Assembly: GCF_006716085.1 (NCBI RefSeq)
Contig: NZ_VFON01000002.1
Span: 1-64,000, forward strand
Origin: Leucobacter komagatae
GTDB taxonomy: Bacteria; Actinomycetota; Actinomycetes; Actinomycetales; Microbacteriaceae
Length of the DNA stretch: 64,000 nucleotides
Direction of reading: 5' to 3'
Made by a program: the position numbers and the translations under genes. The stretch's first letter is position 1; each line of letters starts with the position of its first letter. A model generated the notes under the pieces. It was not told the DNA's origin and did not search any database. It saw only the letters and a list, made by a program, of their open reading frames with translations. Below are positions 22,880 through 41,706 of the stretch, piece by piece.

Positions 22880-24583
22880 CTACCGTTCGAGCAGCCGCAG
22901 CTGCAGCATCGCTTCGAACCTGTCGTCGGCGTTCTCGAGATCGATACCGCTGATCTCGACGGCGCGACGCAGCCGGTACCTAAACGTATTCGGGTGCACG
23001 AACAGCATGTCCGCAGCCTTCGCGACGTCGCCGAAATGGTCGAACCAGGCCCGCAGGGTGTCGACGAGGTGCCCCTTCTGCTTCGCGTCGTGCTCCATGA
23101 GCCTCGACACCGGGCCCGTAAACTCGTCGCCGCGCACCACCATGAGGTCTCGCAGCTCGAGCATGAGCACTGAGGCGTGCACGTCGCTGAGTCTGGCGAC
23201 GCGAGACCGCGCGAGCCCCTGGCGCTTCCGCGGCCTGGGCTCGGTCTCTGGCTGCTGGGCCACGGCCTGGCCAGCTGCGGGCTCCAGGAGCGCCCTGAGC
23301 ACGCGCCTCGCCGACGACCGCGACCGCGCAATACCGCCGATGTCCTCGGCCGGCGGCCCGACAGCGATGACGGCAGACATGCGACTGCCGACCCTGTCGA
23401 GGAAGTCTTCCATCGTGCGCACCGCGTGGTCGCCGGTCGGGTCGTTCGGCTCAGGCAGGATCCCGTACGCCGTGTCGCCGAGCAGCGCGACCGCGGAGCC
23501 CGGGCGCATCGCCGACAGATGCACGGCGAGCGCGTCTGCAAAGCGCTCGCGGTCGGCCATCAGCGCCTGATCGCCGCCCTGCTCCGTGTCGGTGAGCACC
23601 GCCGCGACGACGCACACGGGTTGGCCCGAAAGGTTCAGGCGCGCGAGCGCCTCGCTCGCGCCGTGCCCGCCCTCAAGCGCCGTGCTCAAGAGCTCGGCGC
23701 GCAGCCGCCGCTGCACGTCTGCGCCCGCGCGCACGCGGAGCAGGTGCAGGGCGACGAGCTTCGCCGCGTCGCGCAGCGTGATCCGGCGCTCCTCGGTCAG
23801 CGGCCCGTCCATCGCCGCCCAGATTGAGCCGAGCACCTCGTCGCCCGCGCGCACGCCGATCGCGACGCGCTGCGTCGACATGTCGGCCTCGGCTTCAATG
23901 CGCGAGATAACGACGGGATCCTCGCTGCGATAGAGCTCGCGGAACACACCCTGCTGGGTGAGCTGGTGACGGTACCGCTCGGGCACGCGCCGACCGATGA
24001 TTGTCTCGGCACGCGCCGGATCCGCTTCCTCCTGCCTGCCCGAGAACGCGAGCACGCGCGACGACCTATCCTCAATCGTCACGGGCGCGTCAAGCAGCGA
24101 CGAGATCGCGTTCGCGACCGCGAAGAGGTCACCCGACGGGATGCCGCCGAGCGAGTCGACGTGAGTGTCCCCCACGTCGTCTTCCGCAAGCAGCGAGCGC
24201 AGCAGCGCGGCAAGCTGCGTCCACGTTGCGCCGCGCGCCAGCCCGAGCACGACGATGCCGTGCTCATCGGCCGCGCGCTGCACTTCCTCAGTGATCTCGA
24301 CCGGCGAACGAACGACAACGGCCGCGGCCGAGTGGCTCGCGAGCCCCTCGAGCACCTCAGCCAGCGCCGCACTGCCATGGACGCCGACGCCGAGCACGAC
24401 CGCGTGGCGCGGGTAGACCGGCTCATCGACGGGGTCATAGATCACGACACCGCCAACGTCTTGCTGGTCGTCGATGCGGCCGTGGGCGACCTCGAGCAGG
24501 GTAAGCCCGAGGTCGTCCAACACCCGGCCGAGGCTGAACCGGGTAAATCGTGGTTCTTGCCGGTCGCTCATGAAGGGAAGCAT
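22880..24583 (-). CDS. PucR-family transcriptional regulator
   Basis: 567 residues. An N-terminal PucR-type domain (about residues 15-140, VLDDLGLTLLEVAHG with VVIYDP) is followed by a sensory middle region and a C-terminal helix-turn-helix of the PucR type (about 505-560: LVDTLRAWFDHFGDVAKAAD, then LFVHPNTFRYRLRRA). It is the last gene of the long minus-strand run and lies 42 bases after the N-acylamino-acid racemase gene, which makes it the likely regulator of the D-peptide locus, perhaps sensing an N-acyl amino acid or peptide. The start may be the ATG at 24583 or 24571. Confidence 0.88.
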   Translation of the reverse strand: MLPFMSDRQEPRFTRFSLGRVLDDLGLTLLEVAHGRIDDQQDVGGVVIYDPVDEPVYPRHAVVLGVGVHGSAALAEVLEGLASHSAAAVVVRSPVEITEEVQRAADEHGIVVLGLARGATWTQLAALLRSLLAEDDVGDTHVDSLGGIPSGDLFAVANAISSLLDAPVTIEDRSSRVLAFSGRQEEADPARAETIIGRRVPERYRHQLTQQGVFRELYRSEDPVVISRIEAEADMSTQRVAIGVRAGDEVLGSIWAAMDGPLTEERRITLRDAAKLVALHLLRVRAGADVQRRLRAELLSTALEGGHGASEALARLNLSGQPVCVVAAVLTDTEQGGDQALMADRERFADALAVHLSAMRPGSAVALLGDTAYGILPEPNDPTGDHAVRTMEDFLDRVGSRMSAVIAVGPPAEDIGGIARSRSSARRVLRALLEPAAGQAVAQQPETEPRPRKRQGLARSRVARLSDVHASVLMLELRDLMVVRGDEFTGPVSRLMEHDAKQKGHLVDTLRAWFDHFGDVAKAADMLFVHPNTFRYRLRRAVEISGIDLENADDRFEAMLQLRLLER

Positions 24584-24625
24584 ATCGCTAGCACCCGTCT
24601 TCCGGCGTGAGCGGCGCCCGCACGG

Positions 24626-25726
24626 CTAGACCGCGATCCACTCGACGCTGGTGGTGAACTCCTCGAGCAGCTCGGGGATCGGCGCGACGCCGAGACCGGG
24701 GCCAGTCGGCACGGTGAGGTGGCCGTTCTCCATGACCCAGGGCTCGGTGATGTCGGTCTTGTAGAAGCGGTTGCTCGACGACACGTCGCCGGGAAGCGTG
24801 AAGCCGGGAAGCGACGCGAGAGCGATGTTCGCCGCGCGGCCGATGCCCGACTCGAGCATGCCGCCGCACCACACCGGAACGCCAGCGGCCACGGCGATGT
24901 CGTGGATGCGTCGCGCCTCGAGGTAGCCCCCGACGCGGCCCGGCTTGATGTTGATGATGCTCGTCGCGCCGAGGCGGATCGCCGCCGACGCGGTCTGAGC
25001 CGAGGTCACCGACTCGTCGAGGCAGATCGGGGTCTTGAGCATCTTCGCAAGGTCGGCGTGACCGACGATGTCTTCCTCCTCAAGCGGCTGCTCGATGAGC
25101 AGCAGGTCGAAGTCGTCGAGCTTCGCGAGGTGCCGGGCGTCGCGCAGGGTGTACGCGGTGTTCGCGTCGACCTGCAGCTGGATCTCGTCGCCGAAGCGCT
25201 CGCGCACTGCGCGCACCGCCTCAATGTCCCAGCCCGGCTCGATCTTCAGCTTGATGCGCACGTAGCCCTCGTCGATGTAGCTGCCGACGGCGTCGAGCAG
25301 CTCAGGGATCGAGTCCATGATGCCGACCGAAACACCGCAGGGCACGACGTCACGCGCGGAGCCGAGCTCGCGGCCGAACGAGCGGCCCTCTGCGCGCAGC
25401 TCGGCGTCGAGCACAGCGGTCTCGAGCGCGGCCTTCGCCATCGGGTGTCCCTTAAACTTGTGCAGCGCTTGGCCGACCCCGTTCGCGTCGGTGACGTTCG
25501 CGATGGCCTCGATGAAGTAGCGCTTCATAATGTCGGCAGCGCCGTCAGTGTACTCGGGCGAGTACAGCGGGTCACCGAGGGTGACGCACTCGCCCCAGCC
25601 CTCGGCCTCGTCGGTGACGGCCTTGACGAGCAGGATGTCGCGCGCGGTCTGCGTGCTGAACGACGTGCGGAACGGCGATACGAGGGGCAGCCCAACGCGG
25701 CGCAGCTCAAAGCCTTCGATCTTCAT
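24626..25726 (-). CDS. N-acylamino-acid racemase / o-succinylbenzoate synthase family (enolase superfamily)
   Basis: 366 residues. The muconate-lactonising subgroup's barrel is visible: the catalytic lysine motif KLKIEPGWD, metal ligands in LQVDANTAYT (Asp), LIEQPLEEED (Glu) and CLDESVTS (Asp), and the second lysine in INIKPGRVGGYLEA. The same fold makes o-succinylbenzoate for menaquinone or racemises N-acyl (often N-succinyl) amino acids. The neighbours decide: the start overlaps the stop of a GNAT gene (TGATG) that follows an M20 deacylase, the known set of the succinyl-CoA-dependent D-to-L amino acid conversion. There are no men genes here. So N-succinyl/N-acylamino-acid racemase is favoured. 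Confidence 0.87.
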   Translation of the reverse strand: MKIEGFELRRVGLPLVSPFRTSFSTQTARDILLVKAVTDEAEGWGECVTLGDPLYSPEYTDGAADIMKRYFIEAIANVTDANGVGQALHKFKGHPMAKAALETAVLDAELRAEGRSFGRELGSARDVVPCGVSVGIMDSIPELLDAVGSYIDEGYVRIKLKIEPGWDIEAVRAVRERFGDEIQLQVDANTAYTLRDARHLAKLDDFDLLLIEQPLEEEDIVGHADLAKMLKTPICLDESVTSAQTASAAIRLGATSIINIKPGRVGGYLEARRIHDIAVAAGVPVWCGGMLESGIGRAANIALASLPGFTLPGDVSSSNRFYKTDITEPWVMENGHLTVPTGPGLGVAPIPELLEEFTTSVEWIAV

Positions 25727-26541
25727 CAGTCTTGTTCTCCTTCGGTTGATGCGTGTTGCAAGATGTAGCCGGTGCCGCGCTGGAATCCAACGATGCGGGC
25801 GCCGCTGTTCAGGTGGGAGGTGAGCTGCTCGCGGATCAGGCCGCGCCACTCCCGGGCGCCGTCGGGATCGCTGACGCGGAGCCCCTCGATGTCGTCAGGG
25901 ATCGCGACCGCGAACCCCTCGGCCGGGGCGGCAGCCGAGCGGTCACCGCCTGCGAGCCGCGAGACGCTGTCGTCGAGCAGGTGCCAGCGCACGAGCAGTC
26001 TGTCACTCAGGTCGCCCGCGTTGATCGTGTCGGCCATGAGCCCGTAAAAATTCTCGAGATACTCGACCGGTACGGCGCCGAGCTTGTTGAAGTTGAAGTT
26101 CGCGTTGCGCGAGACGAGCGGATCGTACGTCCACTCAATCGCCTCGATGCCGCGGTCGAGCGCCCAGGCCCGCTGGTGCAGCTTTATGCCGTAGCCGACC
26201 GACTTCCCGACCAGCCCTGGCACCACACCCGTGATGTGGCTGTGCAGGGTCGAGCGCTCCGGGCTCGAGTGCAGCCCGAGCGCCGCGCCGACGAGCTCGC
26301 CGTCGAGGAATGCGCCCGCAATGTAGTTACCGGTCTTTCCGAGCACCCGCATGATCTCTTTGGGCACGACGGGGTTGTCGGCGGTGCGGCCCCAGATGAG
26401 GGCGAGCAGGTCAATCACCTGGGCTTCCTCTTCGCTGCCGCTCATCTCACGAACGGTCACGCCGGTGAGGGCGGCCGCGCGCTCGGCATCGGCGTGCGCC
26501 TGCTGCCGCATGTGTGGGGTGATGCGTTCTTCAGCCATCAT
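25726..26541 (-). CDS. GNAT acyltransferase, probable D-amino-acid N-succinyltransferase-type
   Basis: 271 residues. The predicted GNAT fold of the COG3375 type shows HSHITGVVPGLVGKSVGYGIKLHQR, resembling an acyl-CoA-binding turn, and IEWTYDPLVSRNANFNFNKLGA. Homologues lie next to N-acylamino-acid racemases in other bacteria, where one has been shown to transfer succinyl from succinyl-CoA to D-amino acids. The start overlaps the M20 gene stop and its stop overlaps the racemase start, so all three are translationally coupled. The acyl donor and acceptor are inferred from context and not from residues. Confidence 0.8.
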   Translation of the reverse strand: MMAEERITPHMRQQAHADAERAAALTGVTVREMSGSEEEAQVIDLLALIWGRTADNPVVPKEIMRVLGKTGNYIAGAFLDGELVGAALGLHSSPERSTLHSHITGVVPGLVGKSVGYGIKLHQRAWALDRGIEAIEWTYDPLVSRNANFNFNKLGAVPVEYLENFYGLMADTINAGDLSDRLLVRWHLLDDSVSRLAGGDRSAAAPAEGFAVAIPDDIEGLRVSDPDGAREWRGLIREQLTSHLNSGARIVGFQRGTGYILQHASTEGEQD

Positions 26542-27659
26542 GCACCGGCTTTCGGGTCGTTGAGGAGGCTCGCGACGAGCTCGGTCAGCAGCAGGGTTCT
26601 CGGTTCGATCTCGGCGATGAGCACGTGCTCACTCTCGGCGTGAGCGCCACCGCCAACGGCGCCGAGACCGTCGAGCGTTGGCACGCCGATGCCCGCGGTG
26701 AAGTTGCCGTCGCTCGCCCCGCCAACCGCGACGCCCTCGAGCGGGTCGAGCCCGAGGCGCGAGGCGATGGCCTGTGCGCGGTCAAACAGCTCCGCCGCTG
26801 AGGCGCTCTCAAACGGGGGTCGGTTCGGCCCACCGATGACCTCGAGCTGCGCGCCCCCCAGCACCGGGCGGAGAGCGAGCATCGCCTCGTGCACCCGATC
26901 CTGCTCGGCGAACGTGCGTGCGCGCACGTCGACCTTGAATGAGGCCCGCGCCGGCACCGTGTTGCTCGTCGTGCCCGACGTCGCGACCGTCGGCGTCACG
27001 GTCGTGCCGAGTTCTGGGTTCCCGAGGCCCGCGACAGCGATGAGCTGATGCGCGAGCTCGAGCGAGGCGTTCACGCCCTTCTCGGGTTCGAGGCCCGCGT
27101 GAGACGCGACACCGTAGACGACGAGCTCGTAGAGCGAGACGCCCTTTCGCTCAATCTTCAGCGCCCCGCCGTCGGCCGACGCCTCAAGCACGAGCGCGGC
27201 GTCCGCGCCCCTCGAGGTCTCCTCGATGAGGGCGCGAGAGCTCGGCGACCCGAGCTCCTCGTCGCCCGTGACGAGGATGGTCACGCCATCGCGGTCGTCG
27301 AGCGCTGCGACAGCGTGCAGCGCCATGGCGAGGCCGGTCTTCATATCGAAGCAGCCGGGGCCGGTGAGCACGCCCTCGGCGTTCGTGAAGGGCAGCCGTG
27401 CGAGGGTGCCGAGCGGCCACACCGTGTCGTGATGCGCGACGAGCAGCACCCGCGTCGTCTCGCCGAAGCTCCACTTCAGGTGGCTCACGCCGTCGATGAG
27501 GATCCGCTCGGGTGCGGTGCCGAGCAGCTCACCCCCGAGCTCGGCAACGAGCGCGGCAGACGCGGCGACCGCGTCGTGGTTGTCTGATGGGGACTCGCAT
27601 TCGACGAGCGTGTGGATCGTCTCGACGATGTCATCGAGGCGCACCGGGTGCGGTGTCAT
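26538..27659 (-). CDS. M20-family peptidase/deacylase (N-acyl-L-amino-acid hydrolase-like)
   Basis: 373 residues, a zinc hydrolase related to glutamate carboxypeptidase and CPG2. Metal-site segments are LVAHHDTVWPLG, GPGCFDMKTGL, the catalytic glutamates in TGDEELGS, and a C-terminal histidine in GGGAHAESEH. The lid/dimerisation domain lies between about residues 175 and 285. No signal peptide, so cytoplasmic. In its coupled set with GNAT and racemase it would release the L-amino acid from the N-succinyl-L form, completing an irreversible D-to-L conversion. It could also act on dipeptides or folate-like glutamates; context favours the deacylase. Confidence 0.85.
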   Translation of the reverse strand: MTPHPVRLDDIVETIHTLVECESPSDNHDAVAASAALVAELGGELLGTAPERILIDGVSHLKWSFGETTRVLLVAHHDTVWPLGTLARLPFTNAEGVLTGPGCFDMKTGLAMALHAVAALDDRDGVTILVTGDEELGSPSSRALIEETSRGADAALVLEASADGGALKIERKGVSLYELVVYGVASHAGLEPEKGVNASLELAHQLIAVAGLGNPELGTTVTPTVATSGTTSNTVPARASFKVDVRARTFAEQDRVHEAMLALRPVLGGAQLEVIGGPNRPPFESASAAELFDRAQAIASRLGLDPLEGVAVGGASDGNFTAGIGVPTLDGLGAVGGGAHAESEHVLIAEIEPRTLLLTELVASLLNDPKAGA

Positions 27660-27727
27660 ATCGATGGACCTTTCTTCTGTTCCGTGCGGCTCGTGGTCGC
27701 CCGGGGCAAGCGTGTGGGGGTGGAGGT

Positions 27728-29203
27728 TTACCGGAGTTGGCCGCGAAGCCCGCGCCCGGGGTAGGCGTCGACGACGATGTCTTCGTCGCGCACGACGAAC
27801 TCGCCGGCGACGAGCACGTGCTCGATGCCGATCGAGGGCCGCGTGCTCGCGAGGTAGGTCGCCTGATCGGTGACGCGCTCGGCATCGATCACGACCAGGT
27901 CGGCGTCGGCCCCGATGGCGAGGTGGCCCTTCTGCGCGAACGCGGGGGTCGTCGAGTCCATGACGCGCGCGGGCAGGTAGCTGCAGCGCCTGAACGCCTC
28001 AAGCCAGCTCCACGCCCGCTGCTCGCGCACCATCATGCGCAGCGACCGCGCGAACGTACCGGAGGTGCGCGGGTGCGTGGTGCCGCCCTCGGGCAGCGGC
28101 CACTCGCGCGTATCGACGCTGCCGTCTGGCCAGTTGACCTGCATCGCGTCTGAGGCCACGATGCCGTCGGGGAACGCGAGTGCGCGCTCGAGCAGCGCCC
28201 TGTCGGCCGGATCTTCATCGTCGAGGAACTCGACGATGCACGCGGCGCCGGGGTCAATCTTGCGCATGTGGCGCAGGTGGTCTGCGTCGCGGATGCGCTC
28301 CCCCGTCGCAACGATCACGATGTTCGCCGGGGTGATCCCCCACACACTGAGGCGCTCGGGGGCGAGGAATGCCGCGCCGATGCCCGTGCTCCCGGCCCCG
28401 TATGGGTACGTCTCGACGGTCATCGCGGCCCCGCCAGTCTTCGCCCGCTCGATCACGCCAAGCGTGCGGTCGATGTGCCTGCGCGAGGTACTGTTCACGT
28501 GGCAGTGGTGCACCTGGCCGCCGAACTCCATGGCGGCCCGAGCGGCCTCCTCGGTGCCGTCCATGGGCGTCGTCGGGTCGGCCTCGGTGATCTCGCGGAC
28601 GTGAGTGAACGTCGGCACGCCTACGCGCGCAGCGAGCTCGTTCACGGCGAGGTACTCTGCCGGGTCGGTGCGCGGGGCGTAGCCCTGCAGGATCCCGATC
28701 CCGAGCGCCCCGTCCGCGAGCTCACTCTCCAGGCGGCCGAGCCACGCCCGCAGTTGCGCGGGCGTCGAGTCGGCCTGCCACGCCGGGTCGCCGAGGATCG
28801 AGAGGCCCTCGGCGAAATCGGCGTTCGCAGAACGGCCGGAAAGCACCTCCGCGCGGGCCATGCCCCAGGAAGCGGAGAACCCGAAGTTGATGGGGCGCCC
28901 CTCCCGCATCGCCTTCTCGTAGGCGAGTTCGACGGGCAGCAGCCCCGCCTCAAGTTCGAGCGCCGTTGTCACGCCGTCGCGGGCTTGGAGCCGCTGACCC
29001 GCGATCGAGTTCACGTGGCTGTGCAGGTCGACGAAGCCGGGGCCGACGATCTTGCCTGCCACGTCGAGCTCATCGGCGCCCTCGACCTGAAGTTCGAGGC
29101 CGATTGCGGCGATCTTGCCGTTCTCGATGAGCACGTCGGCGACGCGGTCGGTTCCGGTTCCCGGATCGACCACGCGCCCGCCGCGCAACAGCACGCGGTT
29201 CAT
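27728..29203 (-). CDS. N-acyl-D-amino-acid deacylase-like amidohydrolase
   Basis: 491 residues, amidohydrolase superfamily, subgroup of D-aminoacylases. An N-terminal beta-sandwich segment (NRVLLRGGRVVDPGTGTD) leads to the metal-binding HxH (GFVDLHSHVNS, about residue 61). Further likely ligands are in FTHVREITEAD and HHCHVNSTS, and the closing segment is KGHLAIGADADLVVIDAERV. The start overlaps the serine hydrolase stop (TGATG) and a 68-base gap separates it from the M20 gene. It would release D-amino acids from N-acyl-D-amino acids or act on D-peptides; the exact substrate is not determinable here. Confidence 0.83.
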   Translation of the reverse strand: MNRVLLRGGRVVDPGTGTDRVADVLIENGKIAAIGLELQVEGADELDVAGKIVGPGFVDLHSHVNSIAGQRLQARDGVTTALELEAGLLPVELAYEKAMREGRPINFGFSASWGMARAEVLSGRSANADFAEGLSILGDPAWQADSTPAQLRAWLGRLESELADGALGIGILQGYAPRTDPAEYLAVNELAARVGVPTFTHVREITEADPTTPMDGTEEAARAAMEFGGQVHHCHVNSTSRRHIDRTLGVIERAKTGGAAMTVETYPYGAGSTGIGAAFLAPERLSVWGITPANIVIVATGERIRDADHLRHMRKIDPGAACIVEFLDDEDPADRALLERALAFPDGIVASDAMQVNWPDGSVDTREWPLPEGGTTHPRTSGTFARSLRMMVREQRAWSWLEAFRRCSYLPARVMDSTTPAFAQKGHLAIGADADLVVIDAERVTDQATYLASTRPSIGIEHVLVAGEFVVRDEDIVVDAYPGRGLRGQLR

Positions 29204-30630
29204 CAGGCCGCCACTTCGACGGCGTCGCGCTTGCGGAGGCAGCGAATGTCAGCGTACAGGCACGGCTGGCCATCAACGGTCGTGAACGTGAGTTGCGACC
29301 AGGTGGAGAGCGCGTCGGGGCGCGAGACGAACCGGTTCGGCTTCGCGGTCGGCAGGACATCGAAGACCGTTGAGGTGACCGAGCTCGGGTCGAGTCCCTG
29401 CGTGAGCTTCGCCTTCACCTGGCCCTCTTCAGTCTTGTATACCTCGACCGAGGTGATGAAGTCGCCGTAGGTGCCAAGCCATTCGTCCTTGACGACAGCC
29501 TCAGTCGCGGGCCCCGAGGGGCCTGTGCCTGCGCCCGTCGTCACCCCGACAAACTCGCGCGCGAAGGCGTCGACAATGTCGGCGCCTGCTCGGTTCGCGA
29601 TGCCGCCGTTGCAGAACACGACGATGACAACGCCGTCGTCTGGGAGCACCTGAAACCAGGCCTTGTTGCCGACCGTCGTGCCGCCGTGCCAGAAGAGCCG
29701 GTGGCCCTCCCACTCATCAAGGATCCAGCCGAGGCCCCACTGGGGCGACAGCGCGTCGGCGTCGCCCAGGTCTGCCTGGACCTGCGCCATGAGTTCAACC
29801 GACTCCGGGCTCAGCACGTTCGTGCCGGCCACCCCGAGACCGCCGCGCAAGAACGAGCGGCCGAAATCGAGCAGGTCGTCGACGCTGCTGTTGATGATGC
29901 CGGCGGGGCCAACGGAGCGCGGGAGGGCGGTCGTCGGTGCGGGGACCCAATCATTCGCGCCAGTGTCGCGGGTGTGACCGTGCTGGTATCGGTGGCTCAT
30001 GATCTGCTCGGGCAGCGTCAAGAACTGGTGGAGGTCGAGGCGCTGGCTGATGCGCGCCTGCACCGACGCGTCCCAGGTGCGGCCATCGATGAGCTCGATG
30101 ATGCGGCCGAGCACGACCCAGCCCGAATTGCAGTACGACCAGCCGTTCCCGGGGGTGAAGAGCGGCTCGGCGTCCTTCAGCAGGGCAACGTACTTCTCGA
30201 TGCAGTCATCGCCGCGGCCGGTGTCGGTGAAGACGTCGCCGTTGATGCCAGACGTGTGCGAGAGCAGGTGGCGGATAGTGATCTTCGTGCCGTCGTCCTG
30301 CGTCGAGAGCGGGGTGTCCGGGAGCAGCTCTGAGACGAGCGTCTCAAGCTCGAGCTTGCCTTCCTCGCGCAGCTGCATGATCATCGTCGCGGTGATGATC
30401 TTCGTGACGGAGCCGATCTGGCAGAGCGTATCGCGGGTCGTCTCGACGCCGGTGCGGTTGTTCGCCAGGCCGGTACTCGCGACGAAGCGCTGCTCGACCC
30501 CGGTCTCACCGTCGATGCGCAGCACGCCCGCGACGATGCCGGGAACGTGGTGCCTCCTCGCGGTCTCACCGAGAAACTGCTCCCAACGCGCGGTGTCGAA
30601 AGCAAGTGGGCTCAGAGTGTTCGTCATCAT
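29203..30630 (-). CDS. Serine hydrolase of the beta-lactamase fold (D-aminopeptidase/esterase-like)
   Basis: 475 residues, no signal peptide. Fold motifs are S-x-x-K (QIGSVTKIIT, about residue 75), Y-x-N (WSYCNSGWV, about 165) and HGG near the C-terminal half (FWHGGTTVGNKAWF, about 315). A C-terminal beta domain of about 110 residues follows (LGTYGDFITSVEVYKTEEGQ). This architecture is shared by D-aminopeptidases and esterases of family S12. Overlap with the D-aminoacylase-like gene and the peptide-transporter neighbourhood favour a D-peptide substrate. Confidence 0.82.
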   Translation of the reverse strand: MMTNTLSPLAFDTARWEQFLGETARRHHVPGIVAGVLRIDGETGVEQRFVASTGLANNRTGVETTRDTLCQIGSVTKIITATMIMQLREEGKLELETLVSELLPDTPLSTQDDGTKITIRHLLSHTSGINGDVFTDTGRGDDCIEKYVALLKDAEPLFTPGNGWSYCNSGWVVLGRIIELIDGRTWDASVQARISQRLDLHQFLTLPEQIMSHRYQHGHTRDTGANDWVPAPTTALPRSVGPAGIINSSVDDLLDFGRSFLRGGLGVAGTNVLSPESVELMAQVQADLGDADALSPQWGLGWILDEWEGHRLFWHGGTTVGNKAWFQVLPDDGVVIVVFCNGGIANRAGADIVDAFAREFVGVTTGAGTGPSGPATEAVVKDEWLGTYGDFITSVEVYKTEEGQVKAKLTQGLDPSSVTSTVFDVLPTAKPNRFVSRPDALSTWSQLTFTTVDGQPCLYADIRCLRKRDAVEVAA

Positions 30631-30676
30631 TGACTCCTAGTTCTGGTGTGGTGTGCAGTTCTGTTCTGTGCTGGTG

Positions 30677-32272: not shown

Positions 32273-32443
32273 AGTGTGTTCCTTCGTGTTGAGGCTCAGG
32301 ATTCCATCATCTCGGGAGTGCGCACCCGAGCACTTCGGTGTGGGTTACAAATTTGCACACCCAAGCTGTTCCCCTGAACAGTTCGTGTGGTGTGACCCGC
32401 GATTCGGGCCTGGGCGGGCATGCGCGCCCGGAGAGGTGTAGCA

Positions 32444-32480
32444 ATGGGGCGCCACCGGACTCCGCCCGGCGACGCCCCAT
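32444..32480 (-). terminator. Hairpin after substrate-binding protein copy 2
   Basis: An 8-bp outer stem (atggggcg / cgccccat) and an inner ccgg pairing, 12 bases beyond the copy-2 stop. It could end or attenuate transcription before copy 1, giving the two copies different expression. Confidence 0.55.
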
Positions 32481-32491
32481 CGCTCGCTCAG

Positions 32492-34090: not shown

Positions 34091-34227
34091 AGTGTGTTCC
34101 TTCGTGTTGATGCCCAGGGCAACCCCTTCGGGCGAGCGTGCGCGACACTTCGGTGTGCTGCGCACATGTGCTCGCCCGGGTCACCACCCTGAGCTGGATG
34201 GGTGAGTCGGAATGGATGAATCGGTCG

Positions 34228-35007: not shown

Positions 35008-36875
35008 TTCAGGGCTCCTTCAAAGTCGATCAGGCGCACCGCGCCGGTTGGCGGCATGACGGCCTCGATGACACCGATGGGCGAGGTGCCCGAGAAGTCA
35101 GCGTCGTCGGGGATCGACGCCATCGCCTCGCCTCGCGGACTCTCCATCGTCGGAACGGTTGCCATGAGCGCCTGCGTGTAGGGGTGAGCGGCGTTGCCGT
35201 TCCGCAGCTCCTCGGAACTGATGTCTTCCACGATCCGACCCCGGTACATCACGAGCACGCGCGTGCAGAGCGAGGTCACCACGGCGATGTCGTGCGAGAC
35301 GAACATGATCGCCGTACCGTCCTCCTCATTGATCTGCTTGAGCAGCTTGAGGATGCCTGCTTGCACGGTGACGTCGAGCGCGGTGGTCGGCTCGTCGGCG
35401 AGAATCAGCGACGGCTTGCCCATAAGCCCCGCGGCAATCATCGCGCGCTGGCGCATGCCGCCCGAGTACTCGTGCGGGTACTGCGAGTAGCGGCGCTCGG
35501 CGTCGGGAATCTTCACGGCGTTCAACCGCTCGATCGCCGCGTCCTTCGCCTCGGCCTTGCTCATGTCGAGGTGCAGCAGCCCGCTCTCAGCGACCTGGGT
35601 ACCGACGTGAAGCGCCGGGTTCAGCGACGACATCGGGTCTTGGAACACCATCGCGAGCTTGGTGCCGAAGTGGTGGTCGAGCGACCTGGGGTGCCCCTCT
35701 TCGCTGAGCACGAGGTCTTCCCCGTCGAAACTCGCCGAGCGCGACGTAACGTGCAGCGGTGCTTCGAGCAGCCCGGCGATCGACATGAGCGTGAGGCTCT
35801 TCCCCGATCCCGATTCGCCGACGACACCGACGATCTCGCCGCGACCGACGTCGAACGAGACGCCATCGACGAGCGGGCGAAGCGACGTTCCGCCCTGCGG
35901 CGCGAACACCTTCAGGCCACGAACAGAGAGCACCGTGTCGCTCGACGCGTCGGTCGCAATGTTCTCGCCCCGGCGCTTCACCTCGGCAGCGTTCTCAGCG
36001 CGAGACAGCTTGAGCTTCTTGAGCAGGCGCGACGAGAGGTTGCGCTGCACACCGGTGCGGAGCGTGCGATTGAGCACCTCGCCCAGGAGCACGAAGGTCA
36101 TGCCTGCGAGGATGATCGCCATGCCGGGCACGAGCGCCAGGGTCGGGGTGACGAAGATGCGGCTGATGCCCTCGTTGAGCATGCGGCCCCAGTCGTACTG
36201 CGGCACTTGAACGCCGAGACCGAGGAACGAGAGGCCAGCGAACGCGAGCAGGGTGCCGCCCGCGGTGAGCGTGGCGTTCACGAGCAGCGGGTCGCGGATG
36301 TTCGGCAGCACGTGCCTGAACACGATCTGGCGCTTCGGCACGCCGAGCACGAGCGCGGCGGAGACGTAGTCGCGCCCCCACACCGACGCGGCGAGGTTGT
36401 GCACGAGGCGCCCGTAGTTCGGCATCATCGCGATCGCAATCGCGAAGCTCGCCGCCATCGCGCTCTGTCCAAGGATCACGGAGAAGGCGATCGCGAGCAG
36501 CAGGCCCGGGAACGCAACACCGATGTTGATACCTGCGACGAGCCACCGGCCTGCGCGACCGCCGAGTACGAGCGGCATGAGGCCGAGCACGACGCCGCAG
36601 ACGATACCGATGATGGTGGCGGTGAGCGCCATCACGATCGACAGGCGCGTCGCAACGAGCGTGCGCAGCAGAATGTCGCGGCCGCTGCCGTCGGTGCCGA
36701 ACACGTGCTCGGCGCTCGGCGGCTGCGAGATCTGGCTCGCGTTCGTGACCGCGGCCTGCTCGCCCCAGATGATGGGGGCGAAGATCGCGAGGAACAGGAG
36801 GGCGCCGAGGGTCACCATTGAGGCGATGCCGAGCGGCGTGCGCAGTACTGCGAGCAAGCGCTGTGTCATTGTCAT
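35004..36875 (-). CDS. Fused peptide ABC transporter permease and ATPase (DppC-DppD)
   Basis: 623 residues. Residues 1-290 are a DppC-type permease: a first helix, the periplasmic segment EHVFGTDGSGRDILLR typical of DppC, then five more helices and the coupling motif in YVSAALVLGVPKRQIVFRHVLPN. After a basic linker at about 275-310, residues 315-600 form a DppD-type ATPase with GVVGESGSGKSLT, MVFQDPMSSLNPALH, YSGGMRQRAMIAAG, LILADEPTTALD and FVSHDIAVV. Such fusions are known in actinobacteria. Both of its ends overlap the neighbouring genes by four bases. Confidence 0.93.
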   Translation of the reverse strand: MTMTQRLLAVLRTPLGIASMVTLGALLFLAIFAPIIWGEQAAVTNASQISQPPSAEHVFGTDGSGRDILLRTLVATRLSIVMALTATIIGIVCGVVLGLMPLVLGGRAGRWLVAGINIGVAFPGLLLAIAFSVILGQSAMAASFAIAIAMMPNYGRLVHNLAASVWGRDYVSAALVLGVPKRQIVFRHVLPNIRDPLLVNATLTAGGTLLAFAGLSFLGLGVQVPQYDWGRMLNEGISRIFVTPTLALVPGMAIILAGMTFVLLGEVLNRTLRTGVQRNLSSRLLKKLKLSRAENAAEVKRRGENIATDASSDTVLSVRGLKVFAPQGGTSLRPLVDGVSFDVGRGEIVGVVGESGSGKSLTLMSIAGLLEAPLHVTSRSASFDGEDLVLSEEGHPRSLDHHFGTKLAMVFQDPMSSLNPALHVGTQVAESGLLHLDMSKAEAKDAAIERLNAVKIPDAERRYSQYPHEYSGGMRQRAMIAAGLMGKPSLILADEPTTALDVTVQAGILKLLKQINEEDGTAIMFVSHDIAVVTSLCTRVLVMYRGRIVEDISSEELRNGNAAHPYTQALMATVPTMESPRGEAMASIPDDADFSGTSPIGVIEAVMPPTGAVRLIDFEGALK

Positions 36876-37894
36876 GATTTATCCAATGCGGTACGGGGAT
36901 CCAGCAGGATCAGCAGGACGTCGATAACGAGGTTGATGAGCAGCACCACTGCCCCGTAGAAGATGATGATCGCCTGAACGAGCGGGTAGTCCTTGCCCTG
37001 GATCGACTGGACGATGACGCCGCCGAGGCCGGGCCACGCGAAAATACCCTCGACGATGACGGTTCCCGCGATCATGCCGCCGAGCGCCATGCCCGAGATC
37101 GTCAGCGTCGACGTGAGCAGGTTCGGAAGCACGTGCTTGCGGTACAGGCGCACCGGCGACATGCGCCGCGCTCGGGCGGTGCGAACGTAGTCCTGCTGCA
37201 GCACGGTGAGCGTCTCGGCCCGCACGATGCGGGTGAGGCCCGCGGCCGGCCCGAAGGCCAGCGCCGTGACCGGCAGGATATACGACGTGAAATCCTCCCT
37301 TCCCGCGACCGGCAGCAGGTCGAGCGTCACCGCGAAGAAGTAGACGAGCAGGATCCCGGCGAGGAACTCGGGGATGAGCGCGAGCACCGCGGTCACCGAG
37401 TTGAAGCCGGCGTCGACGCCGGGGCGACGTTCGCCGTGCGTGAGCGCACCAAATGTCAGGCCGAGGCAAACCGCGACGAAGAGCGCGATCGCGACGGCCG
37501 ACCACGCGATCTCAAGCGTCGCAGGAGCGCGCTGCATGATGACGTCGATCACCGGCATGCGCGAGCTGATCGACTCACCGAGGTCGCCCGTGAAGAGCCC
37601 CTTCCAGAACGAGAAGTACTGGACGATGACCGGCCGGTCGAGGCCGAGCTCGACGCGACGCGCTTCGACGGCTTCGGGCGAGGCGTTCTCGCCGGCCGAC
37701 ACGCGCGCGGGGTCGCCGGGGATGAGCTGCATCAGCAAGAACGTGACCGTGATGAGCACGAACATCGAGACAACGAAGTAGCCGCCGCGGCGGAGCAGGT
37801 ACGCTGCCCAGGGCTTGCGGGCCAAGAACGACTCCCGCTTCTGCGGTTTGGGTGTCTCAGTGTCCGTTATTGGACTCGCAGAAATTGCTGGCAT
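36872..37894 (-). CDS. Peptide ABC transporter permease (DppB-like)
   Basis: 340 residues from the ATG at 37894, which follows a clear gaggagag site; the open frame to 38011 has no such site. A basic/polar N-terminal tail of about 33 residues precedes the first helix (YFVVSMFVLITVTFLLMQLI), followed by the DppB-specific PGDPARVSAG and LGLDRPVIVQYFSFWKGL. Five further helices and the cytoplasmic coupling motif (DYVRTARARRMSPVRLYRKH) follow. It is the first gene of the minus-strand locus; the 211-base region between it and the divergent D-aminopeptidase gene should hold the main promoters. Confidence 0.92.
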   Translation of the reverse strand: MPAISASPITDTETPKPQKRESFLARKPWAAYLLRRGGYFVVSMFVLITVTFLLMQLIPGDPARVSAGENASPEAVEARRVELGLDRPVIVQYFSFWKGLFTGDLGESISSRMPVIDVIMQRAPATLEIAWSAVAIALFVAVCLGLTFGALTHGERRPGVDAGFNSVTAVLALIPEFLAGILLVYFFAVTLDLLPVAGREDFTSYILPVTALAFGPAAGLTRIVRAETLTVLQQDYVRTARARRMSPVRLYRKHVLPNLLTSTLTISGMALGGMIAGTVIVEGIFAWPGLGGVIVQSIQGKDYPLVQAIIIFYGAVVLLINLVIDVLLILLDPRTALDKS

Positions 37895-38105
37895 GCGCTC
37901 TCCTCGCCGTTGGGTCGTAGCTGCTCTGTTCAGTATTGCGGAGAAGGGAATCGTGTCGCATTGTCGGACGCGCCAAGCAACGAACCCAAAAACTGTTCTG
38001 CCTACCAACATCGGCTTCTGGATACCTCATAGGCTTCGAGATTGGAGGCCTTACGCTTCGCGACGGTGCGACGCCGCCGCTTCACATCCCCTGGAAAGGT
38101 AAGTA

Positions 38106-38948
38106 ATGCGCGTATACATTTCGATCGATATGGAGGGTGTCGCCGGCATCGCCACGATGGACCAGGTTGTCCGAGGCGGCCACGGCTACCCGCGCGCACA
38201 GCAGCTCATGACCGGCGAGGCGAACGCGGCCATCGAGGGAGCATTCGCGGGCGGCGCGACCGAGGTGACCATCAACGACAGCCACGGCACGATGGACAAC
38301 CTCATTCACGAGGACCTCGACCAGCGCGCCCGCGTCGTGTTCGGCAGCCCCAAGCTTGACTGTATGGCCGAGGGCATCGACAAAGACCACGACGTCGCGC
38401 TCTTCATCGGCTACCACGCGGCCGCAGGAGGGCCCGGGGTCATGGCGCACACCTACTCATCGCTCTTCGCCGAGGTGCGCGTCAACGGCACCTCGGTCTC
38501 CGAGGCCGACGTAAACGCGCTGCAGGCGGCCGCGGTCGGCGTACCCGTCGCGCTCCTCACCGGCGACGACGTGATCTGCGCCGACATCGCGGCCTCCCTC
38601 CCCGGCATTGCGACGGTGACCGTGAAAGACTCGCACGGCTACAACGCGGCTGACTCCGTCTCCCCCACCGAGTCGCGCCGCCTCATCCACGACGCGGCGA
38701 AGCGCGCCGTGGAGAACGCCTCGTCACTCACCGTCGCCCCCACCCCCGAGATCATCGAGGTGGAGATCGATATGCCGAACATCCCCTCCGCGGAACTCGC
38801 GCAGATGATCCCGACGGCAGAGCGCACCGCGATCCGCACGATCAAGCTCACCGCGCGCTCGCCGCGCGAGGCCGTGAACTTCATCACCGCGTGCTACCAG
38901 TTCGCCGCCGCGTCGCTGCGCGGCATGCTGCCGCTCATCAACCGCTAA
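38106..38948 (+). CDS. dppA: M55-family D-aminopeptidase DppA-like
   Basis: 280 residues, close to the 274 of Bacillus subtilis DppA, a self-compartmentalising zinc D-aminopeptidase that removes N-terminal D-amino acids from peptides. The N-terminus YISIDMEGVAGI (Asp and Glu metal ligands), TINDSHGTMDNL, and FIGYHAAAGGPGVMAHTYSS (His ligand) are the metal-site segments. A good ribosome-binding site (gaaaggtaag) precedes the ATG. Divergent from the peptide transporter operon, as expected for a companion of peptide uptake; ended by a strong hairpin. Confidence 0.93.
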   Translation: MRVYISIDMEGVAGIATMDQVVRGGHGYPRAQQLMTGEANAAIEGAFAGGATEVTINDSHGTMDNLIHEDLDQRARVVFGSPKLDCMAEGIDKDHDVALFIGYHAAAGGPGVMAHTYSSLFAEVRVNGTSVSEADVNALQAAAVGVPVALLTGDDVICADIAASLPGIATVTVKDSHGYNAADSVSPTESRRLIHDAAKRAVENASSLTVAPTPEIIEVEIDMPNIPSAELAQMIPTAERTAIRTIKLTARSPREAVNFITACYQFAAASLRGMLPLINR

Positions 38949-38960
38949 CCAGCACACGCG

Positions 38961-38996
38961 CAAGAGCCCGGGCCCTTAGCGGGGCCCGGGCTCTTG
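38961..38996 (+). terminator. Terminator after dppA
   Basis: Perfect 15-bp stem (caagagcccgggccc / gggcccgggctcttg), six-base loop, 12 bases after the stop; also lies beyond the end of the convergent serine hydrolase gene. Confidence 0.85.
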
Positions 38997-39025
38997 TGTT
39001 CTCGCCAGGCGGCTGAGAACTCGAG

Positions 39026-39928
39026 CTAGCCGAGTGCGTCGGAGAGCAGGCGCGCGATGTCACCGATCGCGCGGTCTGCCGCAGGGTTGCGCGACTGCAG
39101 CGTCTTGCCGCGCAGGAAGACGGCGATCGCGTGGCGCTTGCCACCCGGGAACTCGACCACACCGATCTCGTTGCGCACCATGCCGATCGTGCCGGTCTTG
39201 CCGCTGATCTTCACGTCGTCACGCGGGAAGCCGGCGCTCAGGCGGTGCGGCCACACCTGCATACCGAGGATGCGGCGCGCCTCGGCGCACGCCTCGGGCG
39301 TCGCCGCGGCGTCCGTCCAGATCTGCTGCAGAAGCGACGTCGCCTCGCGCGGCGTCGTGCGGTTGGTCTTTTCAGGGGTCGCGGCGGTGAAGGTCGCGGC
39401 GGTGTCGTAGTCCACGCTCGCCATGCCGTCGATGGTGCCGATGCCGGCCGCCGCGAGATCCTTCGCGATGTCGTCGAAAATCACCGAGCAGTCACCGGTG
39501 AGCTGCGTGCCTGGCAGCCCGAGCTCACGCATCGTCGAGTTGACGCGATCCACAGTGACAAGCCCGGTGACGATGTCGGTCGCCGCGTTGTCGCTCACCG
39601 TGATCATCGAGGTCGCGATGTCGCGCAGCGACCAGTCGGCGACGTCCGAGAACACGCTCAGGCCCGTGGGGCCCATGGTTGCCTCCGACGGCGATACCTC
39701 GATGCGCTGCGCGGGGTCAAGCTCTCCCGCGGCCACCTGGCGCACGTACTCGACGAGCACGGGAACTTTGAAGACCGAGGCCGTCACGGTGGGGTCGTCA
39801 GAGCGGAAGCCGACCTCTCGACCTGTGTCAATGTCACGGGCGTGCGCGAACGCGAACACCCCCGCGTCTTCGGCGACCTTGGCGATCTGGGCGGTGAGGG
39901 TATCTTCATCGATAAGTTTCGTGCTCAT
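39026..39928 (-). CDS. Class A beta-lactamase-fold serine hydrolase without signal peptide
   Basis: 300 residues from the ATG at 39928 (MSTKLIDEDT); an ATG at 39985 adds 19 residues that do not form a proper signal peptide. The three class A motifs are present: S-V-F-K with nucleophile Ser51, S-D-N at 112-114 (ITVSDNAATD) and K-T-G in ISGKTGTIG. The classical Glu166 region (omega loop) does not line up clearly in this reading, so beta-lactam deacylation may be poor. Cytoplasmic location and the position among D-peptide genes suggest hydrolysis of D-amino-acid amides or peptides, but penicillin recognition or plain esterase activity is equally possible. Confidence 0.8.
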   Translation of the reverse strand: MSTKLIDEDTLTAQIAKVAEDAGVFAFAHARDIDTGREVGFRSDDPTVTASVFKVPVLVEYVRQVAAGELDPAQRIEVSPSEATMGPTGLSVFSDVADWSLRDIATSMITVSDNAATDIVTGLVTVDRVNSTMRELGLPGTQLTGDCSVIFDDIAKDLAAAGIGTIDGMASVDYDTAATFTAATPEKTNRTTPREATSLLQQIWTDAAATPEACAEARRILGMQVWPHRLSAGFPRDDVKISGKTGTIGMVRNEIGVVEFPGGKRHAIAVFLRGKTLQSRNPAADRAIGDIARLLSDALG

Positions 39929-40009
39929 ACTGAGCAGACTAGTGGCAGCTGCGACGCGCGACGTTGTGAGCACAGACGAGAGCACCCACCCCGGTTCGTC
40001 CCACAGAAC

Positions 40010-40046
40010 AACGCACCCGTCCGGCTTGTGGCCAGGCGGGTGCGTT
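40010..40046 (-). terminator. Terminator after the amino-acid dehydrogenase gene
   Basis: 10-bp stem (aacgcacccg / cgggtgcgtt) around a partly paired loop, 22 bases beyond the dehydrogenase stop on the minus strand. Confidence 0.7.
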
Positions 40047-40067
40047 GCGGAATCCCGTGTGAGAGCG

Positions 40068-41150
40068 CTACTTTCCGAGCAGCTCGTTCACGAGGTTGTC
40101 TGCGGCGACCACTGTGGTGATGCCGCGAGCTTCGGCCTCGTCGAAGACGCGCGAGAGCGTGTCGCCGATCGCGTCGATGCGCGCGATGCGCTCGTCGATC
40201 GTGTCGCCCTCGGCACCGAGGTAGAGCACGCCGCCGGCGTTGACGAGGTAGTCGGGGGCGTAGAGTATCCCGCGCGAGGCGAGCTGTTCCGCGCCGGTCG
40301 CCTGCGCGAGCTGGTTGTTGGCAGGGCCGACGACCGCGGCGACCTCGAGCTCGTCGATCACCTGCGGCGAGAGCATGCCGCCGACGCCCGCGGGCATGAA
40401 GACGTCCGCGGGAACGCGGTGAGCTTCGGCGGGCGCGACCCAGTCGGCGCCGAGCTCACGAGCGAGCTCCTGCTTCGCGTCGTTGATGTCCGACAGGGTG
40501 AGCACGGCGCCCTCGGCGGCGAGGCGCTCGGCGAGCGCGGATCCTACGTGGCCAAGACCCACGATCGTGATCTTGCGCCCCTTGGGGTCGGTGCTGCCGT
40601 GTGTGCGGCGGAGCGTCTCGCGGAGCGCGGAGTAGACGCCGCGCGCCGTGTAGGCACCCGGGTCACCGAGGCCACCCTGGTCGGCTGGCAGGCCGACGGC
40701 GTGCTCGGTGAGCTCGGAGACGACGGCCATGTCGGCCGCGGTCGTGCCGACGTCTTCGGCGGTGAGGTATGCGCCGCCGAGCGCCTCGACGGCGTCGCCG
40801 AGGTCGAGGAACGCGTTCCGTCGCAGTTCGCCCGTAAGCTGCTGGCCCGGCTCAAGCACGATAACTGACTTGCCTCCGCCGAGCTGGAGGCCAGCGAGCG
40901 CGTTCTTCGAGGTCATGCCCCGCGACAGGCGCAGCGCGTCGGCGAGCGCCTCGCCCCAGCCGCTGTAGCTCCACACGCGGCACCCGCCGAGCGCGGGGCC
41001 GAGCTTGGTGCTGTGCACGGCGACGATAATCGTGAGCCCCGAACGGGCCCCCGTCGAAATGTTGACCTTCTCGTGGTCGAGGAACGGAAACGAACCGGCG
41101 ACGTTCTCATCGGCGAGAGCGGGCTGGGCCAGGGTAGAAGCACTAGTCAT
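40068..41150 (-). CDS. Glu/Leu/Phe/Val dehydrogenase family protein (Leu/Val dehydrogenase-like)
   Basis: 360 residues, NAD-dependent oxidative deamination of branched-chain or aromatic amino acids. The substrate/catalytic segments are GPALGGCRVW, then AGLQLGGGKSVIVL (catalytic Lys) and YLTAEDVGTT; the dinucleotide fold is ITIVGLGHVGSALAERL. The length is that of leucine/valine dehydrogenases rather than of glutamate dehydrogenases (about 450). It is divergent from an Lrp-type regulator. Together with the neighbouring D-peptide genes it would feed freed L-amino acids to 2-oxo acids. Confidence 0.9.
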   Translation of the reverse strand: MTSASTLAQPALADENVAGSFPFLDHEKVNISTGARSGLTIIVAVHSTKLGPALGGCRVWSYSGWGEALADALRLSRGMTSKNALAGLQLGGGKSVIVLEPGQQLTGELRRNAFLDLGDAVEALGGAYLTAEDVGTTAADMAVVSELTEHAVGLPADQGGLGDPGAYTARGVYSALRETLRRTHGSTDPKGRKITIVGLGHVGSALAERLAAEGAVLTLSDINDAKQELARELGADWVAPAEAHRVPADVFMPAGVGGMLSPQVIDELEVAAVVGPANNQLAQATGAEQLASRGILYAPDYLVNAGGVLYLGAEGDTIDERIARIDAIGDTLSRVFDEAEARGITTVVAADNLVNELLGK

Positions 41151-41200
41151 GCAGAGAATTCAATCGAGCACTAGCGAATCCGACAAGTGGCGCCCGAGTT

Positions 41201-41219
41201 ATTGATCGTTTTGATCGAT
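41201..41219. promoter_or_regulatory. Candidate Lrp-type operator
   Basis: Imperfect dyad ATTGATC-gtttt-GATCGAT in the 103-base gap between the divergent dehydrogenase and lrp-like genes, 35 bases before the regulator start. It is AT-richer than its surroundings, as expected for Lrp/AsnC sites. No experimental support. Confidence 0.4.
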
Positions 41220-41253
41220 GCATTCACATCCGGGTGGGACTACCTTGAACAGT

Positions 41254-41706
41254 ATGCATGTCCTTGACGCCACCGACCGCCGGATCCTCACGGTCCTCGA
41301 CGCCGAGCCGCGGGCCACCGTGCAGGCCATCGCGTACCGGCTCGGGCTCGCGCGCGGCACGGTGCACACCCGGCTCGACAAGCTGCAGACCTCGGGCGCC
41401 CTCAGAGCAAACTCGCTACGCCTCGACCCGCCGGCCCTCGGCTGGCCGTTGCGCGCCCGCATCACGGCCGAGGCAAATCAGGAAGAGCTCGAGGGCATGA
41501 TTGCCGACCTCGAGCTCATCCCTGAGATCACCGAGTGCTTCGCCGTCTCTGGCCCGAGCGACCTCGCGATCGAGATCGTCGCCCGCGACGCCGACGACGT
41601 CTACCGCGTCACGCAAGAGATCATGAAGTGCCGCGGCGTCATCCGCACGTCGACCGCCATCATGCTCCGCGGGCTGATCGCTAGGCGCCAGCACCAGCTG
41701 CTGTAG
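41254..41706 (+). CDS. Lrp/AsnC-family transcriptional regulator
   Basis: 150 residues from the ATG at 41254 (MHVLDATDRRIL); an ATG at 41218 adds 12 residues. The N-terminal winged helix is DATDRRILTVLDAEPRATVQ followed by YRLGLARGTVHTRLDKL; the RAM (effector-binding) domain follows (ECFAVSGPSDLAIEIVARDADD). Divergent from the amino-acid dehydrogenase gene, a common pairing in which the regulator senses the amino acid and controls the dehydrogenase. Confidence 0.92.
   Translation: MHVLDATDRRILTVLDAEPRATVQAIAYRLGLARGTVHTRLDKLQTSGALRANSLRLDPPALGWPLRARITAEANQEELEGMIADLELIPEITECFAVSGPSDLAIEIVARDADDVYRVTQEIMKCRGVIRTSTAIMLRGLIARRQHQLL

Follow-up and report, generated by a model that had tools for sequence, protein, structure and literature searches.

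A modular locus in Leucobacter komagatae with a probable role in the uptake and stereo-inversion of D-amino-acid peptides

The stretch analyzed here, hereafter called the window, is the initial 64 kb of contig C2, which is 459,807 bases long and one of the two contigs of the 3.75 Mb Leucobacter komagatae genome. Between positions 22880 and 41706, it contains a peptide importer, several hydrolases and a trio made of a GNAT acyltransferase, an enolase-superfamily racemase and an M20 metallohydrolase. Comparison of these genes with their relatives suggests that the locus probably has a nutritional role, importing peptides containing D-amino acids and converting their residues to the L-form. The choice of D-amino-acid peptides as substrate is prompted by the repeated company of enzymes suited to D-residues, whose combination differs from one locus to another. 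Candidate sources of such peptides are wall fragments, antibiotics, and host or aged proteins. Each gene type that an earlier note had read from the DNA was recovered in its place by Pfam and NCBIfam scans and by matches to solved structures, with the acyltransferase identified through its orthologues.

The substrates, reaction directions, acyl group and regulation of the locus would be the following. First, peptides would be captured by two binding proteins anchored to lipid and brought into the cell by an ABC importer of the Opp type. Secondly, D-tolerant and apparently cytoplasmic hydrolases (S12, M55 DppA and class A-like) would free the D-residues. Thirdly, the free D-amino acid would be acylated by the GNAT enzyme, probably with succinyl-CoA, the racemase would turn the N-acyl-D form into the N-acyl-L form, and the M20 enzyme would deacylate the L form only, which would drive the inversion. 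An amidohydrolase of the PRK09061 subfamily could deacylate N-acyl-D compounds, whether imported or arising as stray intermediates, and the PucR regulator may sense product or substrate. A leucine dehydrogenase, present in some Leucobacter, may finally take the L-product to its oxo acid.

Eleven tightly packed genes lie on the minus strand from 37894 down to 22880, with the permease gene PermB first and the PucR gene last. Five of the junctions are overlaps, of 4 bases (PermB with the fused permease-ATPase, the latter with the next ATPase, and M20 with GNAT) or of 1 base (S12 with the amidohydrolase, and GNAT with the racemase), so that the run is likely to form a single operon. PermB is an OppB-type permease (36872..37894; Pfam BPD_transp_1, 6e-35), for which the open reading frame list places the start at 38011 while a conserved start block supports 37894. 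It is followed by an OppC-type permease fused to an OppD-type ATPase in a single open reading frame (35004..36875; BPD_transp_1 and ABC_tran) and by an OppF/DppF-type ATPase with Walker A and LSGGQ motifs (34228..35007; ABC_tran, 1.7e-32). Two family 5 peptide-type solute-binding lipoproteins complete this part: the second (32492..34165; SBP_bac_5, 1.8e-45), with a lipobox and a probable start at about 34090, is 76% identical to the first (30677..32272; SBP_bac_5, 1e-47), which has an LSGC lipobox at residue 17. The window thus holds the components of an Opp/Dpp importer, namely a family 5 binding protein, two permeases and two ATPases with Walker and signature motifs, one permease-ATPase pair being fused.

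The inversion trio occupies the distal part of the run. The racemase of 366 amino acids (24626..25726), an N-acyl(succinyl)amino acid racemase by family, aligns over its whole length with its closest solved relative, 1sja (phmmer E 4.6e-175), which we take to be the N-acylamino acid racemase of Amycolatopsis. The KLK, VDANT, IEQPL, CLDES and IKPGR stretches are identical in the two proteins; they presumably comprise the acid-base lysines and metal ligands of N-succinylamino acid racemases (NSAR) and o-succinylbenzoate synthases (OSBS). To our knowledge, the Amycolatopsis enzyme is known mainly as a biocatalyst and has no settled physiological role. The adjoining GNAT gene (25726..26541) encodes a presumed D-amino acid N-acyl- or N-succinyltransferase. 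Neither its sequence nor its profile gave a convincing match among solved structures; its fold is predicted from the orthologue alignment and from a structural model with its fold match, and 12 of 15 orthologues match Pfam Acetyltransf_6. In the same operon, the M20 metallohydrolase is of the carboxypeptidase G2 type (26538..27659; Pfam M20, 5.8e-26; 1cg2, E 8.7e-34) and presumably hydrolyzes N-acyl- or N-succinyl-L-amino acids.

The D-to-L pathway of Geobacillus kaustophilus, which Sakai et al. reportedly described in Biochemistry in 2006, is said to combine a D-amino acid N-succinyltransferase of the GNAT family, an N-succinylamino acid racemase and an L-desuccinylase of the M20 family. The Leucobacter trio resembles it in the clustering of the same three enzyme families, in the racemase subfamily with its active-site motifs and in the carboxypeptidase G2 type of the M20 enzyme. 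It differs from the Geobacillus pathway in sharing its locus with genes for peptide import, for several hydrolases and for PucR.

That the racemase might instead be MenC, among the genes of an ordinary L-peptide uptake cluster, appears very improbable. Its score does exceed the cut-off of the o-succinylbenzoate synthase model TIGR01928 (311 versus 201 bits), and plasmid records label such genes menC. However, a separate MenC is encoded on contig C1 (C1:2554537-2555520; 436 bits, cut-off 288), so the window racemase is not needed for the menaquinone step, which led us to reject this assignment; the best solved match, an N-acylamino acid racemase, and the frequent pairing with GNAT also oppose it.

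Four hydrolases accompany the trio. The S12 protein (29203..30630, minus strand; Pfam Beta-lactamase, 5.9e-58) is a penicillin-recognizing serine hydrolase and a presumed D-peptidase. It carries the motifs S74xxK77, Y166xN168 and H315xG317, in which the S, K, Y, N, H and G are invariant in 18 of 18 aligned sequences. Its best solved match is 7spn (listed as IS11), followed by a D-Ala-D-Ala carboxypeptidase and the alkaline D-peptidase 4y7p (6.4e-25). In comparison with the Ochrobactrum anthropi D-aminopeptidase and the Bacillus cereus alkaline D-peptidase, S74, K77, Y166, N168, H315 and G317 match all six of the conserved residues S62, K65, Y153, N155, H287 and G289 given in PMC3347556. Unlike these two enzymes, the Leucobacter protein belongs to a different subfamily, in which an acidic stretch resembling GD..TDTGRGDD is kept fully or partly. 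This stretch, GINGD.FTDTGRGDD at about residues 128-142, has G131, D132, G140 and D142 invariant and marks the subfamily; at a guess, it could bind the amino terminus of the peptide. About 350 kb away on the same contig (C2:381414-386184, neighbourhood L101), another S12 gene is found together with an S9-S12 fusion gene, adjoining a GntR/aminotransferase-type gene; relatives of the window's importer and racemase were not found in the 20 kb examined there.

Beside the operon lies a divergent gene for a DppA-type M55 D-aminopeptidase (38106..38948, plus strand; Pfam Peptidase_M55, 1.5e-91). Its product matches 1hi9 (3.3e-41), presumably DppA of Bacillus subtilis, and retains the D8/E10/H60/H104/H115/E133 positions, which we take to be the zinc site of that enzyme. 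With 203.6 bits, it remains below the cut-off of the NCBIfam DppA equivalog (430 bits) and, judged by this score, is an M55 enzyme and not an equivalog of the Bacillus protein. The dpp operon of B. subtilis joins this M55 D-aminopeptidase to a dipeptide ABC importer. The Leucobacter locus likewise has an M55 enzyme with the DppA metal-site residues beside an Opp/Dpp-type importer; it differs in the permease-ATPase fusion, in the divergent rather than first position of dppA and in the addition of the trio and S12.

Convergent on dppA is the gene for a class A-like serine hydrolase (39026..39985, minus strand, start codon uncertain; Pfam Beta-lactamase2, 4.1e-55). Its nearest solved relative is 2wuq (1.5e-26), which we take to be BlaB of Streptomyces cacaoi and which is listed as a beta-lactamase regulatory protein, whereas the Leucobacter gene sits among catabolic genes. 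The SxxK, SDN and KTG motifs are present in this protein, while the E..LN motif, presumably the Glu166 deacylation motif of class A beta-lactamases, is absent and the curated class A cut-off is missed (87.1 versus 200 bits). The amidohydrolase (27728..29203, minus strand) exceeds the PRK09061 cut-off (NCBIfam NF006560; 622 versus 340 bits). Its solved relatives, 3gip (4e-22, with the best stretch at the C-terminus only) and 1m7j (5.8e-20 over residues 5-484), place it near N-acyl-D-glutamate deacylase and D-aminoacylase.

Read by eye, the S12, M20, GNAT, racemase, amidohydrolase and DppA proteins have no apparent signal peptide, so that hydrolysis should come after uptake; the class A-like hydrolase is probably cytoplasmic as well. 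This location bears on the idea that the locus serves the catabolism or detoxification of antibiotics containing D-residues, such as non-ribosomal peptides or beta-lactam products, with the penicillin-fold hydrolases opening them and the trio consuming the D-residues. Such a role would fit the solved relatives of S12, which include the alkaline D-peptidase and penicillin-binding enzymes, the beta-lactamase fold of the class A-like protein and the occurrence of related loci on Streptomyces megaplasmids. It nevertheless seems distinctly unlikely to us, because hydrolases acting only after uptake would give poor protection, because the class A-like protein lacks E..LN and falls below the class A cut-off, and because scans of 20 window proteins revealed no domain of the penicillin-acylase type.

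The conservation of the locus was examined first within the genus. The racemase family is present in 17 of 54 Leucobacter genomes, L. komagatae included, and GNAT and M20 genes lie near the racemase in all 17 genus loci examined outside the window. Three types can be distinguished among these loci. Seven loci share S12 and the amidohydrolase with the window; the fused importer is present in six of these and absent from the seventh, L105, which is identical to L009. In two of the seven (L006 and L007), all genes of the window locus occur in the same order except for the second binding protein. A further locus of this S12-amidohydrolase type ends after 4 kb. The second type, with four loci, has the order M20-GNAT-racemase-PucR with an S9-peptidase-like gene nearby (identified in L109 and similar in the other three). 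The third consists of five distant loci with a racemase only 40-45% identical and, in four of the five, a different importer. One of these, L119, was scanned for domains and contains a SIS protein, an M19 dipeptidase, an S12 protein and an enzyme resembling D-amino-acid dehydrogenase (185 bits against a cut-off of 383); L116-L118 encode comparable proteins.

A phenol 2-monooxygenase-type gene marks the site (41730-43637 in the window, L108:18001-19887 and L009:7951-9843) and reveals three nested states. In the full state, seen in the window, L006 and L007, it follows an Lrp gene. In L108, it lies directly after the class A-like gene, with neither the leucine dehydrogenase nor the Lrp gene in between. 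In L009, which keeps the S12-amidohydrolase-M20-GNAT-racemase half, everything from the importer to Lrp is missing at the site. These states imply that the importer, DppA and class A-like set came or went as a block.

The leucine dehydrogenase-like enzyme (40068..41150, minus strand), an ELFV dehydrogenase, has leucine dehydrogenases as its nearest solved relatives (6acf, 8.8e-74; 1leh, 4.6e-73), ahead of a phenylalanine dehydrogenase (2.4e-50). The Lrp/AsnC regulator is encoded divergently from it (41218..41706, plus strand; Pfam AsnC_trans_reg, 3.4e-13). Since they are absent at the same site in L108, we regard these two genes as a flanking add-on; they occur in 3 of the 26 loci combining GNAT with the racemase and S12, all three in Leucobacter, and were rejected as core members. 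The earlier note had proposed a complete route from imported D-peptides to oxo acids. Its first part fits the co-location of importer, penicillin-fold hydrolases, M55 enzyme and trio, which agrees with import and stereo-inversion; the last step leans on this add-on of some Leucobacter.

The same arrangement raises the question of whether two or three units (the importer-to-PucR operon, the dppA/class A-like pair and the leucine dehydrogenase-Lrp pair) simply lie side by side and do not cooperate. For the leucine dehydrogenase-Lrp pair this holds; for the locus as a whole we consider it rather unlikely. A divergent control region (37895..38105) lies between the operon and the dppA and class A-like genes, a terminator-like repeat separates these two genes, and the L009 site lacks the importer, dppA and the class A-like gene. 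Yet the same two genes border a reordered importer-racemase locus in another Microbacteriaceae genus (L085), and a class A-like gene recurs in S12-PucR loci of Streptosporangiaceae (L017, L022 and L024, which include the importer, and L023, which ends before any importer), as well as twice in the Streptomyces plasmid locus L144. The repeat, a perfect 14-bp inverted repeat between the convergent genes (38962..38995), is probably a two-way terminator judging from its sequence and a terminator-scan match; the region has 5 such matches, no more than shuffled sequence (7.3). In an alignment of the window with five Leucobacter relatives, several blocks of the 37895-38105 intergenic region are kept and could be putative PucR sites; a scan of this region for sigma-70-type promoters gave no match, against 1.3 in shuffled sequence. 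The regulator itself (22880..24583, minus strand; Pfam HTH_30, 1.1e-21, and GGDEF_2) is AdeR/CdaR-like and scores below the NCBIfam AdeR cut-off.

On a wider scale, a scan with the S12 protein of contigs from one genome per species (84,980 species) revealed 28 loci, several of them on stretches ending at contig edges, with the racemase and GNAT in 14, M20 in addition in 13, the fused importer in 19 and PucR in 17. In total, 125 neighbourhoods were compared, 122 of them distinct once L105, L113 and L115 (identical to L009, L006 and L007) were removed. They were found by S12, racemase or transporter searches, apart from L101 and L102, picked for their position in the L. komagatae genome (G000) and in G225, so that frequencies are not those of a random sample, and since many stretches end at contig or read limits, presence counts are lower bounds. 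For the earlier note, a lack of joint conservation in relatives would have been a refutation; the core genes show no such lack: GNAT, racemase and S12 are joined in 26 of the 122 distinct neighbourhoods, in several gene orders (S12 counted at 30% identity and with more than half its length covered; the distant L116-L120, some with S12 by Pfam or similarity, stand outside the 26). Among these 26, M20 and PucR are each found in 23, and the fused importer in 21; 13 have an S9 peptidase, in many cases as a fusion with S12. Full assemblies occur in Nocardioides, Streptosporangiaceae, five other Microbacteriaceae genomes and on Streptomyces plasmids; that of an Arthrobacter plasmid is partial. As further enzymes suited to D-residues, L012 of Amycolatopsis has a flavin adenine dinucleotide (FAD) oxidoreductase and an amidohydrolase, and M19 occurs in L046 and L049. 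In completeness, this Leucobacter type does surpass the usual clusters, as the earlier note had claimed, although it is not unique, L144 and L085 being about as complete.

Trees were built to compare the histories of the genes, and the groupings of five genes were tested. In the tree of the permease-ATPase fusion, the Leucobacter locus groups with L083-L085 (support 100/100; Nocardioides-type grouping rejected, p 0.0004), as does PermB (98/95, p 0.027). Conversely, the racemase groups with L086, L087 and Nocardioides (100/98; importer-type grouping rejected, p 0.005), and PucR with L086 and Nocardioides (97/96; importer-type grouping rejected, p 0.0002), L087 being left out of that tree. The Leucobacter M20 gene could not be placed, three groupings having p values of 0.31-0.36. 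Groups were defined once first quick trees, which carried long-branch warnings, had been seen, and L105, L110, L113, L115, L008 and rows below 75% coverage were left out. The two halves of the locus, importer and inversion, thus appear to have recombined between lineages, yet they are usually found together, as functional dependence predicts.

Several observations weigh against a D-peptide function. The L009 site is an exception to the co-occurrence of importer and inversion genes, its phenol-monooxygenase gene lying directly before S12 with no importer, DppA, class A-like, leucine dehydrogenase or Lrp gene in between. The class A-like gene, the amidohydrolase and DppA are each present in a minority of the 26 joined loci (7, 7 and 6, respectively). 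The S12 protein scores 41.2 bits against an NCBIfam D-aminopeptidase cut-off of 443, and the S12 and class A-like families also include esterases, beta-lactamases and L-acting enzymes. In the phylum, where the racemase was detected at E 1e-60 in 72 of 396 genomes, we hand-picked 40 neighbourhoods from 73 places outside the L. komagatae genome, mostly best-scoring and on longer contigs; 34 of them have GNAT no more than 3.5 kb from the racemase, whereas M20 within 6 kb was found in 5 and S12 in 3. In the family, where the racemase was detected at E 1e-100 in 82 of 398 genomes, neither S12 nor the GNAT-racemase-M20 trio was found in any of 20 extra Microbacteriaceae racemase neighbourhoods; GNAT was within 3.5 kb in 12 of these, and in L127 M20 lay slightly beyond 6 kb.

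These 20 neighbourhoods rule out the racemase as a sufficient marker: alone, it does not imply a D-peptide pathway. The permease-ATPase fusion was detected at E 1e-100 in 50 of 398 family genomes, and 18 fusion neighbourhoods comprised five full loci (L083-L087, from five genomes) and 13 without the racemase. GNAT-racemase pairs are thus widespread, and a minority of them form part of the D-peptide assembly. In another Microbacteriaceae group (L121-L124 and L126), the pair occurs with a PucR gene; in L122, which was scanned, genes for a permease and for a family 3 binding protein of the polar amino acid type adjoin it, and this type may be a version for free D-amino acids. A saccharopine-dehydrogenase-like gene lies just upstream of the racemase in eight of the 20 Microbacteriaceae neighbourhoods (identified in L131, similar in L132, L133, L135, L136 and L138-L140), six of which have no GNAT within 3.5 kb; its presence suggests that the racemase there may have another role.

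Plasmids carry related loci. A protein search of plasmids revealed the racemase in 64 records and S12 in 32, and, among the best 25 matches for each, at least 11 records have both within 14 kb: nine of Streptomyces, one of Arthrobacter and one of Nonomuraea, the last of chromosome size. A nucleotide search of plasmids gave short pieces only, covering at most 5% of the query among the best 20 of 95 records. The Streptomyces NBC_00376 plasmid encodes a class A-like protein, an amidohydrolase (60% identical and above the PRK09061 cut-off), M20, GNAT, the racemase, PucR, S12, a second class A-like protein, a small transposase, a binding protein, the importer and an S9-S12 fusion. The Arthrobacter plasmid stretch holds a binding protein, S12, a dipeptidase, a PucR-like regulator, M20, another S12, GNAT and the racemase. 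Outside the Actinomycetota, a Deinococcus plasmid has the racemase, GNAT, importer genes, two serine hydrolases, an amidohydrolase and a membrane dipeptidase, and an alphaproteobacterial plasmid has the racemase, GNAT and an importer. On a plasmid of the Firmicute Priestia, GNAT, the racemase and an annotated amidohydrolase were found, and no relatives of the window's M20, importer or S12 in 20.6 kb. In all seven annotated plasmid records (L143-L149), the racemase is annotated menC with a menaquinone Gene Ontology term, and GNAT is adjacent in six.

Some of these loci bear on a narrower use of the same machinery, in which murein peptides (e.g., L-Ala-D-Glu-DAP-D-Ala) would be imported and dismantled for recycling or scavenging. 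Cell-wall peptides are an abundant source of D-peptides, a MurR/RpiR regulator accompanies the racemase, GNAT and importer genes on the Deinococcus and Pseudosulfitobacter plasmids, L119 of Leucobacter has a SIS-domain protein, and the solved relatives of the amidohydrolase include the N-acyl-D-glutamate deacylase. On the other hand, selected neighbours scanned with Pfam in the 26 joined loci included a single muropeptide-type gene (Amidase_2, near L045), hydrophobic residues would be expected from the leucine dehydrogenase and the family of the racemase, and the patchy spread of the racemase within the genus speaks against self-recycling. A restriction to murein peptides is therefore possible but on balance unlikely, and we retain the broader use of D-amino-acid peptides as the preferred reading.

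A literature search by title and abstract found no paper describing such a cluster, which is weak evidence of novelty as most subscription journals lay outside its coverage. The chemistry is known in pieces; the modular whole is best seen as a variation, not described before in the papers found, on known systems for the use of D-amino acids and D-peptides. We tentatively propose a wider view, in which these loci may represent one of several repeatedly assembled and sometimes plasmid-carried islands for D-peptide utilization. S12 proteins, S9-S12 fusions and BlaB-like class A proteins might then be intracellular catabolic D-peptidases with the NSAR pathway as their dedicated stereo-inverter, and menC-annotated genes beside GNAT might mark such islands or simpler relatives in Actinomycetota, Deinococcota and Alphaproteobacteria. 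In annotation, a plasmid-borne menC gene next to GNAT should be considered as a D-amino-acid inversion pair before menaquinone synthesis is assumed. If the proposed function is correct, it would give actinobacterial N-acylamino acid racemases a physiological role, explain the position of many menC-labelled genes beside GNAT, provide cytoplasmic penicillin-fold hydrolases with a catabolic function and open a genetic test of how bacteria feed on peptides with D-residues, among them peptide antibiotics, aged protein and fragments of the cell wall.

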